Source of the DNA: Ignisphaera aggregans DSM 17230
GTDB taxonomy: Archaea; Thermoproteota; Thermoprotei_A; Sulfolobales; Ignisphaeraceae
Direction: 5' to 3'
DNA length: 64,000 nucleotides
Assembly: GCA_000145985.1 (NCBI GenBank)
Contig: CP002098.1
Coordinates: 1,282,501-1,346,500 of the forward strand
In this document: positions 1,869-14,678 of the stretch, piece by piece
How positions within the stretch are numbered: the stretch's first letter is position 1
How the letters are laid out: each line of letters opens with the position of its first letter
The notes under the pieces: generated by a model
The model's database searches: none
What the model was told of the DNA's origin: nothing
Seen by the model: only the letters and a program-made list of their open reading frames with translations
Position numbers and translations under genes: made by a program

Positions 1869-3791
1869 TTGCCTTCTCTATATAATCCTATGGAGATAGT
1901 GAGAAGGTGTATAGCTAGTGAAGTATCTAAGGATGTAGGGGTAGATATAGAGGCAGTTGAAAAAGCTATAACTATACCTAGAGAGGAGTTTGGAGATCTG
2001 TCAATAGTATTGTCTAAGATAGGAATAGATATAGCTCTTGAGAAAATACTAAATATGGTTAATAGATGTAGCTATGTTAAGAAATCTGATGGTGTGGGGA
2101 TATATGTAAATATGTTTTTAGATAGGACTAGATTTACAGAACTTGTATTCAACTCTATAGTTAGTGGAGAAGAAAACTACGGTATTTTTATAGATGATAA
2201 GCCTAGGAGAGTAGTAATAGAATATGTATCTGCAAATCCCATACATCCTCTACACATAGGTGCAGCTAGAAATGCTGTTTTAGGAGACTTCCTAGCGAGG
2301 ATACATAGAAAAACAGGTAATACTGTACAAACAAGATTCTATATAAATGATGTTGGTAGACAAGTAGCACTACTAGCGCTAGGCATAATGAAACTAGGAT
2401 CGATAGATATACCAAATGACGTTAAGCCTGATCACTGGCTAGGAACAGTATATGCAATAACAAATACAATTGCAGAGATATATACATTAAAGAAAAGACT
2501 TGAAAATACAGGTGATATAGAGAGAAAAGAACTTGTGAAAGAACTAGATCAACTACTAATAGACGCATCTAAGCTCAGGGAAATAGCTCCAGAAATATTT
2601 GATAAAATCTCTGAAGAACTTAAGAATATCGATATAGAGCAAGAGATATCAAAAATAATGAGAAGCTATGAGAGAGGAGAAGAATGGATAAAAAATATAA
2701 TTAGAAAAACTGTAGAGCTATGTATTAAAGGATTCAAGGAGACTCTATCAAGACTAGGAATAGAGATAGAGATATGGGATTGGGAAAGCGATCTTGTATG
2801 GAGTAAAGAAGTTGATAAACTAATAGATGAACTTAAGAAAAGACCAGAGACCATAGTACATAAAGGGGCATATGCATTAGACTTCACAGAGATTCTAAAG
2901 GATACTGAAATTAGGAGAAGGCTTAGAATTCCGGAAAATCTAGAGATACCTCCATTAATATTTCAGAGAAGCGATGGAACAACACTATATACAGTCAGAG
3001 ATATTGTGTATACACTTAAAAAGTTTAGAGAGTTCAATGCAGATCAGGTAATAAATGTAATAGCCTCAGAACAAACACTACCACAAGCACAAATCAGATT
3101 GGCTCTATATCTACTAGGGTATAGAAAAGAGGCTGAAAACCTTCTACACTATAGTTATGAGATAGTCAATGTAGAAGGTATGAAGATGAGTTCGCGTAGA
3201 GGAAGGATAATAACATTGGATAGCATTATTGAAGAAGCCAAAATTAGAGCATTAGCAGAGCTTGAGAAGAGAGGTAATAGATCAGAGGAACTAGCTGAGA
3301 AGATAGGTATAGCAGCAATAAAGTTCTATTTACTCTCAGTAACACCTTCAAGACCAGTGAAATTTGCTTGGGAATCTGTACTAAATTTTGAAAGGAATTC
3401 TGCTCCATATCTACTCTACACATATGCAAGAGTAGAAGGGATATTTAGAAAGGCTAGGGAAAAGGGAATAGAACTAAATTGGAAGGAACTACTAAGCCAA
3501 GCAGATTTAGGATTTGCAGAAAACCATTCAAGGAGATGGAGACTTATTAAATACATTGCAGAGTATCCAGATATATTTAAGAAGACATATCTAGAACTAG
3601 ATCCATCAATACTAGCAACATATATCCTCAGATTAGCAGATGAATTTAATTCATGGTATGATGAAGAGCCTATAGTTCTTGAGCAGGATCCAAGGGTAAG
3701 AGCATCAAAACTCTTACTAGTATATAGCATAAGAACTGTGTTAAGAAATGCACTTGAGATACTAGGTATAGAGGTTGTAGAGAGGTTATAG
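1869..3791 (+). CDS. argS: Arginyl-tRNA synthetase
   Basis: A 640-residue class I aminoacyl-tRNA synthetase that charges tRNA-Arg. The HIGH-type signature appears as SANPIHPLHIGAARNAV around residue 121-137. The KMSS signature appears as GMKMSSRRG around residue 437. The C-terminal part has the helical DALR-type anticodon-binding features, with a run of Tyr/Arg such as SAPYLLYTYARVEGIF. The start is a TTG at 1869 preceded at 5 bases by GGTG (1860-1863). Length fits archaeal ArgRS. The next small gene begins 3 bases after its stop. Confidence 0.97.
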   Translation: MPSLYNPMEIVRRCIASEVSKDVGVDIEAVEKAITIPREEFGDLSIVLSKIGIDIALEKILNMVNRCSYVKKSDGVGIYVNMFLDRTRFTELVFNSIVSGEENYGIFIDDKPRRVVIEYVSANPIHPLHIGAARNAVLGDFLARIHRKTGNTVQTRFYINDVGRQVALLALGIMKLGSIDIPNDVKPDHWLGTVYAITNTIAEIYTLKKRLENTGDIERKELVKELDQLLIDASKLREIAPEIFDKISEELKNIDIEQEISKIMRSYERGEEWIKNIIRKTVELCIKGFKETLSRLGIEIEIWDWESDLVWSKEVDKLIDELKKRPETIVHKGAYALDFTEILKDTEIRRRLRIPENLEIPPLIFQRSDGTTLYTVRDIVYTLKKFREFNADQVINVIASEQTLPQAQIRLALYLLGYRKEAENLLHYSYEIVNVEGMKMSSRRGRIITLDSIIEEAKIRALAELEKRGNRSEELAEKIGIAAIKFYLLSVTPSRPVKFAWESVLNFERNSAPYLLYTYARVEGIFRKAREKGIELNWKELLSQADLGFAENHSRRWRLIKYIAEYPDIFKKTYLELDPSILATYILRLADEFNSWYDEEPIVLEQDPRVRASKLLLVYSIRTVLRNALEILGIEVVERL

Positions 3792-3793
3792 AT

Positions 3794-4051
3794 ATGGAAA
3801 GACAATGTAAATATATAGTAGAATTGATAGATATAGAGGGATACGCAATGATAGGAATGATAAAAGATTTAAGAATAGCTCAATGCAAAGGTGGTGCATA
3901 TATAGAGACAACGCTCAGTAATAATGAAAAACTATGCACTAGATGTATGGATGCCAAGACCATAGAATTAAGTAGAAAAGTTATAGACTTTTATGCAACA
4001 CTAAATAGAAAAGGGATGATGATTGGTATTACCACTGAGTCTATACAATGA
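3794..4051 (+). CDS. Small conserved hypothetical protein with three Cys
   Basis: An 85-residue protein starting with ATG 3 bases after argS, so it is almost certainly translated from the same message. Cysteines fall at the start and in LCTRCMD near the middle, so metal binding is possible. I do not recognise the family. Its 3' end overlaps a candidate C/D-box sRNA whose C' box spans the stop codon (4010-4075), so the last codons may be constrained by the RNA rather than by the protein. Confidence 0.65.
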   Translation: MERQCKYIVELIDIEGYAMIGMIKDLRIAQCKGGAYIETTLSNNEKLCTRCMDAKTIELSRKVIDFYATLNRKGMMIGITTESIQ

Positions 4052-4075
4052 AGAGGACACCAGATCTGACTCTAG
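4010..4075 (+). ncRNA. Candidate C/D-box guide sRNA (16S 530-loop guide)
   Basis: Seen: box C ATGATGA 4016-4022, 12-nt guide 4023-4034, box D' CTGA 4035-4038, 9-nt spacer, box C' ATGAAGA 4048-4054, 11-nt guide 4055-4065, box D CTGA 4066-4069. The bases before C (GGG) can pair with those after D (CTC). The D' guide TTGGTATTACCA is complementary to GGUAAUACCA, the near-universal 16S 530-loop sequence, which would place the modified base at the A equivalent to E. coli A532. The D guide matches 8 bases of the 23S in this window (1181-1188). It overlaps the stop codon of the 85-residue gene. Confidence 0.7.
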
Positions 4076-4140: not shown

Positions 4141-4428
4141 ATGCAGTTTTGCCCAAGATGTGGAGGTTTATTAATGCCTATAAAGAAAGATGATGGTACA
4201 ACAATACTTAGATGTACGAAGTGCGGATACGAATTACAGCCACAAACAACAGAGTATAGAATAGCTAAAGCAGGAGGATCCAATAGAGTTCAAACAACAT
4301 CTGTTGTAACAGAGGGTAAGAAGATAGGTAGGAAAAAAGAGGAACTAGAACAGGAGAAGGAAGAGTATTATAAAGAGCTATTCTTAGAGCTACTCCATGA
4401 GGAGGAGTATGGCGGTGAAGAAACATAG
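4141..4428 (+). CDS. TFS/RPB9-type N-terminal zinc-ribbon protein lacking the TFIIS ribbon
   Basis: A 95-residue protein beginning with a zinc ribbon, FCPRCGGLL...LRCTKCGYEL, typical of the N-terminus of archaeal TFS (RpoM) and eukaryotic RPB9/RPC11. Archaeal TFS normally continues into a second ribbon with the acidic DE hairpin that stimulates RNA cleavage. Here that domain is absent and the C-terminus is a charged Lys/Glu-rich helix (residues about 60-95). It may be a divergent TFS paralogue or a stand-alone RPB9-like ribbon. GGTGAT lies about 9 bases before the ATG. Confidence 0.75.
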   Translation: MQFCPRCGGLLMPIKKDDGTTILRCTKCGYELQPQTTEYRIAKAGGSNRVQTTSVVTEGKKIGRKKEELEQEKEEYYKELFLELLHEEEYGGEET

Positions 4429-5357: not shown

Positions 5358-5430
5358 GCCGGGGTAGCTCAGCTGGTAGAGCGCGGGGCTGTTAACCCCG
5401 TGGTCGGAGGTTCGAATCCTCCCCCCGGCG
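5358..5430 (+). tRNA. tRNA-Asn (anticodon GTT)
   Basis: A cloverleaf folds cleanly: acceptor GCCGGGG/CCCCGGC, D arm GCTC...GAGC, anticodon stem CGGGG/CCCCG around loop CTGTTAA (GTT anticodon), T arm GGAGG TTCGAAT CCTCC, discriminator G. There is no intron. No CCA is encoded after the discriminator, unlike the other three tRNAs in the window. A TATA-like ATAAGCTTATA lies at about 5306-5316, upstream. Confidence 0.97.
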
Positions 5431-5441
5431 CTATACAATAC

Positions 5442-5500
5442 TTAATATGATGAGGCTCGAAAGGGTTGAATAGTGATAGACTCGCGCAGGACTGATAGCT
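5442..5500 (+). ncRNA. Candidate C/D-box guide sRNA between tRNA-Asn and ubiX
   Basis: Seen: box C ATGATGA 5447-5453, guide GGCTCGAAAGGG 5454-5465, a degenerate D' (TTGA) 5466-5469, C'-like AGTGATA 5472-5478, guide GACTCGCGCAGGA 5479-5491, box D CTGA 5492-5495. The internal boxes are imperfect, which is common in archaeal sRNAs. It starts about 12 bases after tRNA-Asn, so co-transcription with the tRNA is possible. I found no convincing match of either guide to the 23S part in this window. Confidence 0.5.
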
Positions 5501-14616: not shown

Positions 14617-14678
14617 TTTTATTCAGGGCGAGAGCTCCTCATCACATTTCAGATGGTTTGCATAGTCATCATTATTTC
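14617..14678 (-). ncRNA. C/D-box guide sRNA with canonical C, D', C' and D boxes
   Basis: On the minus strand: box C ATGATGA (14672-14666), 13-nt guide, box D' CTGA (14652-14649), 3-nt spacer, box C' GTGATGA (14645-14639), 12-nt guide GGAGCTCTCGCC, box D CTGA (14626-14623). All four boxes match consensus and spacing is textbook. It starts 6 bases after the stop of the RimK-like gene, so it may be cut from that transcript. Nine bases next to box D pair with 963-971 of the 23S rRNA here (helix 89), predicting methylation at A967 (about E. coli 2469). The D' guide has 7 bp with 987-993. Confidence 0.8.

Follow-up and report, generated by a model that had tools for sequence, protein, structure and literature searches.

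Among the C/D-box sRNA genes of six archaea, 25% overlap the 3′ end of an open reading frame (ORF) such that the stop codon lies inside the sRNA, and in almost half of these overlaps it lies in the C box (PMC7994747). The sRNA described here was found in a 64 kb window (the whole stretch of DNA that was analysed) of the Ignisphaera aggregans genome, which is a single contig of 1,875,953 bp. As in the archaeal C/D-box sRNAs at ORF 3′ ends (PMC7994747, citing Tripp et al, 2017; Lui et al, 2018), the stop codon is located inside the sRNA, the boxes are built from UGA and there is no obvious promoter of its own. We see no difference in kind from these sRNAs; what distinguishes the present case is that the stop codon moves among the boxes within one genome family.

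Helix 18 of 16S rRNA has been described as a methylation hotspot (Dennis et al, 2015; PMC4644070). Three of seven archaea are predicted to be methylated at A509, which is equivalent to Escherichia coli A532 because it lies two bases after the G507 of that study (E. coli G530) (PMC4644070). Four sRNAs, Tte sR114, Pca sR28, Sac sR115 and Iho sR21, have D′ guides for A535, and in three of them the D guide is directed to G491 on the opposite strand (PMC4644070). Like the sRNA described here, they are helix-18 double guides, and G491 is at or next to its D site. However, their D′ guide directs methylation to A512 (E. coli A535), whereas the N+5 base of the present D′ guide is A532, three bases away; the sRNA is therefore likened to this group by its targets and would work alike, but is not counted as a member. 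The same predicted site, A509 (E. coli A532), is shared with Pca sR53 and Tte sR15 (Dennis et al, 2015; PMC4644070), which reach it by their D guides and not, as here, by the D′ guide, and whose D′ guides are directed to C530 and C34/35, unlike that of the present sRNA. We conclude that both arrangement and target belong to known kinds, to which the pair of guides and its linkage to the gene add a new member.

A predicted C/D-box sRNA straddling a stop codon

A first-pass annotation of the window had proposed an sRNA with C, D′, C′ and D boxes in order and correctly spaced, with the C′ box spanning the stop codon of an 85-residue gene. Both statements hold: the C (RUGAUGA), D′ (CUGA), C′ and D (CUGA) boxes follow each other within the roughly 50–65 nt expected of the class (Table 1), with 9 nt between the D′ and C′ boxes and a C′ box that departs from RUGAUGA at one position. 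The strict box-and-spacing pattern has two matches in the 64 kb window, the second one at position 14672 on the minus strand, and none in 300 Markov-simulated windows. Judged by its sequence, the segment is a C/D-box sRNA straddling a stop codon, whose mature form probably spans about 4012–4073. A search against Rfam at the gathering threshold returned only rRNA and tRNA matches and no C/D-box family; the sR2, sR9, sR28 and sR1 families did not reach their thresholds, the best archaeal match being sR2 with 17.1 bits against the 42 needed. The sRNA hence resembles the C/D-box class and is not a member of these four families.

Table 1. Features of the sRNA locus (positions in the window).
Feature	Position	Strand	Evidence or remark
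argS, arginine-tRNA ligase	1869..3791	+	NCBIfam arginine--tRNA ligase, E 2.4e-261; synteny
85-aa ORF, family unknown, 3′ end overlaps sRNA	3794..4051	+	Homologues in 13/18 family genomes
C/D-box sRNA core (predicted), C box to D box	4016..4069	+	Boxes ordered; model match; kept in 15/18 family genomes
C box ATGATGA	4016..4022	+	Sequence; TGATGA invariant in 15 aligned relatives
D′ guide TTGGTATTACCA	4023..4034	+	Pairs with 16S GGUAAUACCAG (E. coli 529–539), N+5 = A532; GGTATTACC invariant
D′ box CTGA	4035..4038	+	Sequence; degenerate in several relatives
C′ box ATGAAGA	4048..4054	+	Holds stop codon TGA (4049–4051) of 85-aa ORF
D guide GGACACCAGAT	4055..4065	+	Pairs with 16S GUCUGGUGUC (E. coli 510–519), N+5 = G514
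D box CTGA	4066..4069	+	Sequence
Zinc-ribbon gene like transcription factor S (TFS)	4141..4428	+	Pfam RPB9 zinc ribbon; synteny

The window contains two further arrangements of this type. The second strict candidate, at 14623–14672 on the minus strand (ATGATGACTATGCAAACCATCTGAAATGTGATGAGGAGCTCTCGCCCTGA), has a D guide with 9 bp to 23S 963–971 and a D′ guide with 7 bp to 23S 987–993 (positions of the window), and therefore also looks like a double guide. A looser C/D-like arrangement on the plus strand (5447–5495) starts 16 nt after tRNA-Asn (5358–5431), as would be consistent with the tRNA-sRNA dicistrons already described; the available sequence contained no strong rRNA target for it.

Genomic context and probable origin of the transcript

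The 85-aa ORF starts only 2 nt after argS. Its product matched nothing in Pfam or NCBIfam; many of its homologues share a conserved C...CxxC pattern. Within 60 nt upstream of the sRNA, a TATA-like site is absent in 11 of the 13 family genomes that carry the ORF, I. aggregans included, and processing of the sRNA from the argS message is plausible for this reason. Between the sRNA and the TFS-like gene, such a site is present in 10 of the 13, I. aggregans among them. The simplest reading would be co-transcription with argS and the ORF, argS being the probable start of the precursor transcript, followed by release of the sRNA through RNP-protected trimming, for which a model has been reviewed (PMC7994747). 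Alternatively, a genuine C/D-box sRNA could have a promoter within the 85-aa ORF and not be processed from the argS message. About 20% of archaeal C/D-box sRNAs have a TATA-like motif upstream (PMC7994747), and a weak T-rich stretch, CTTTTATG, is found about 25–30 nt upstream in I. aggregans, but the upstream scan of the 13 genomes and the tight spacing of argS and the ORF make such a promoter rather unlikely.

Predicted guide targets in 16S helix 18

Both guides lie directly 5′ of their D′ or D box and are complementary to rRNA, as expected of the class, whose guides comprise about 10–12 nt. The 16S targets were computed on 16S genes of congeners, the relevant stretch being identical in all four that were found, and the E. 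coli numbering was set from the universal 515F primer site. The D′ guide had been proposed to pair over 10 bases with the 530 loop, with the D′+5 rule pointing to the equivalent of A532. The congener 16S genes bear this out, the 10-bp match to GGUAAUACCA being exact and extended to 11 by a G-U pair, with A532 as the N+5 base. By comparison, only 0.2% of random 12-mers drawn from the window reach 10 contiguous Watson–Crick pairs anywhere in 16S rRNA.

The D guide forms nine Watson–Crick pairs and one G-U pair with its 16S site. In the 14 aligned relatives, the guide addresses the same site, but with U513 as the N+5 base because it has an additional base in front of the D box. Without this base in I. 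aggregans, the exact target position of the D guide is less certain there. With the D′ guide at 529–539 and the D guide at 510–519, the sRNA addresses both strands of the helix, and by complementarity we regard it as a double guide for helix 18. It most likely directs the predicted methyl transfer onto the ribosomal decoding centre, and may possibly also act as a folding chaperone for the helix.

The first-pass annotation had instead assigned the D guide to 23S 1181–1188. The eight contiguous Watson–Crick pairs on which this assignment was based do exist, but as the target the 23S site is rejected in favour of 16S 510–519: the latter offers more Watson–Crick pairs in 14 of 15 sequences (I. aggregans and 13 of the 14 relatives, with a tie in the remaining relative), and it shares a helix with the D′ target. 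That the D guide nevertheless acts on 23S rRNA is improbable.

Conservation of the sRNA and displacement of the stop codon

If the segment functions as an RNA, boxes and guides should be kept in relatives while codons vary, and this is what the aligned region displays. In each of the 13 family genomes with a homologue of the 85-aa protein (I. aggregans counted), the sRNA is located at the 3′ end of this gene, and the order argS, 85-aa ORF, sRNA and TFS-like gene is preserved; two further family genomes (G123 and G137) have the sRNA with the TFS-like gene downstream. The protein itself is only 26–43% identical in relatives (where the match scored best), whereas TGATGA, GGTATTACC and the central part of the D guide show little or no variation. 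In nine genomes, the stop codon lies where the C box begins; I. aggregans has it in the C′ box, G127 and G133 at the D box, which makes the whole sRNA coding, and G132 25 nt upstream. Measured against the C box, the stop codon occurs in frames 0, 1 and 2 across the 13 genomes. Guides and boxes are kept regardless of the reading frame, which shows selection on, and conservation as, an RNA. Four relatives (L021 and L023, from G133 and G127, and L026 and L027, from G125 and G132) have CGTA in place of CTGA as the D′ box, with a perfectly kept D′ guide; D′ methylation may therefore be weaker there.

The conserved guides also bear on the possibility that the segment acts mainly in cis, as an L7Ae-bound kink-turn in the mRNA 3′ end that sets the stability or translation of the message. 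The boxes do sit within the message, and archaeal L7Ae is described as binding mRNAs and perhaps regulating translation (PMC5539422). However, a cis element does not need conserved guides that match two strands of one rRNA helix, and we therefore consider a mainly cis-acting role highly improbable.

Distribution beyond the family

A sequence-only model detected the sRNA in 15 of the 18 family genomes with E 2.6e-13 or better, all 15 matched sequences having been part of its training set, including that of I. aggregans itself (E 1.4e-13). Outside the training set, near-full-length matches were obtained in families f7 and f2, many of them at 1e-6 or better. In several f7 genomes, a small ORF again has the sRNA at its 3′ end; in two of these genomes the ORF matches the 85-aa protein, and most of them have a TFS-like gene downstream of the sRNA. 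Families f3 and f5 retain the D′ guide, but their D guide differs. At E 0.01 or better, the wide search matched 126 of 229 genomes, a number that is not to be read as a count of homologues because weak matches may represent other C/D-box sRNAs, which would share only the boxes and part of the D′ guide.

We also scanned the 229 genomes of the class with the pattern TGATGA-(0–5)-GGTATTAC-(0–4)-CTGA, alongside a reversed control. The pattern occurred in 14 genomes, 13 of which share one geometry despite the freedom allowed in the gaps, and the reversed pattern had no match in the 229. An exact-pattern scan of genome contigs, from which the I. aggregans genome itself was possibly left out, yielded no match. 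Although the 85-aa ORF is a genuine gene and the motifs concerned, C/D boxes, are short and rich in UGA, the chance that boxes and 530-loop match are a mere by-product of coding sequence is negligible, this reading being already contradicted by the comparative data, with conservation across three reading frames and an empty reversed control, and by the simulated windows and the rarity of comparable 12-mers.

A model for release and function of the sRNA

Taken together, the segment is very probably a double-guide C/D-box sRNA that forms the 3′ end of the argS–85-aa ORF message and is predicted to direct methylation of helix 18. The genes for fibrillarin, Nop5 and L7Ae-family proteins, as expected for the class, are all present in the I. 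aggregans genome. Following the model established for the class, we infer the following course of events. Transcription of argS and the 85-aa ORF would yield a message with the sRNA at its 3′ end, and L7Ae would bind the C/D kink-turn and the C′/D′ motif of the sRNA. Together with Nop5 and fibrillarin, L7Ae would then protect the sRNA segment while the flanking RNA is trimmed. In the resulting RNP, the D′ guide would pair with 16S 529–539, leading to methylation of A532, and the D guide with 16S 510–519, leading to methylation of G514 (U513 in relatives). With both of its strands held, the folding of helix 18 might be delayed or steered.

Implications

For a hyperthermophile, the sRNA predicts two ribose methylations in the decoding centre, at A532 and G514. 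It also predicts a shift of one target by a single base, from U513 in the relatives to G514 in I. aggregans, because of the shortening of the D guide by one base. A broader interpretation, which as a whole we consider speculative and unlikely, is that a small gene and a helix-18 guide RNA with overlapping ends form an old linkage, found across several families of the order. The sRNA would repeatedly have set the stop of the protein and, in some genomes, encoded its last residues in different frames, and its position between argS and the TFS-like gene may tie the maturation of ribosomes to the machineries of translation and transcription. The family itself offers a clear comparative case, with one guide RNA retained despite changes in the stop codon that overlaps it and in the reading frame. 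This agrees with the published proposal that C/D boxes can evolve into UGA stop codons and vice versa.
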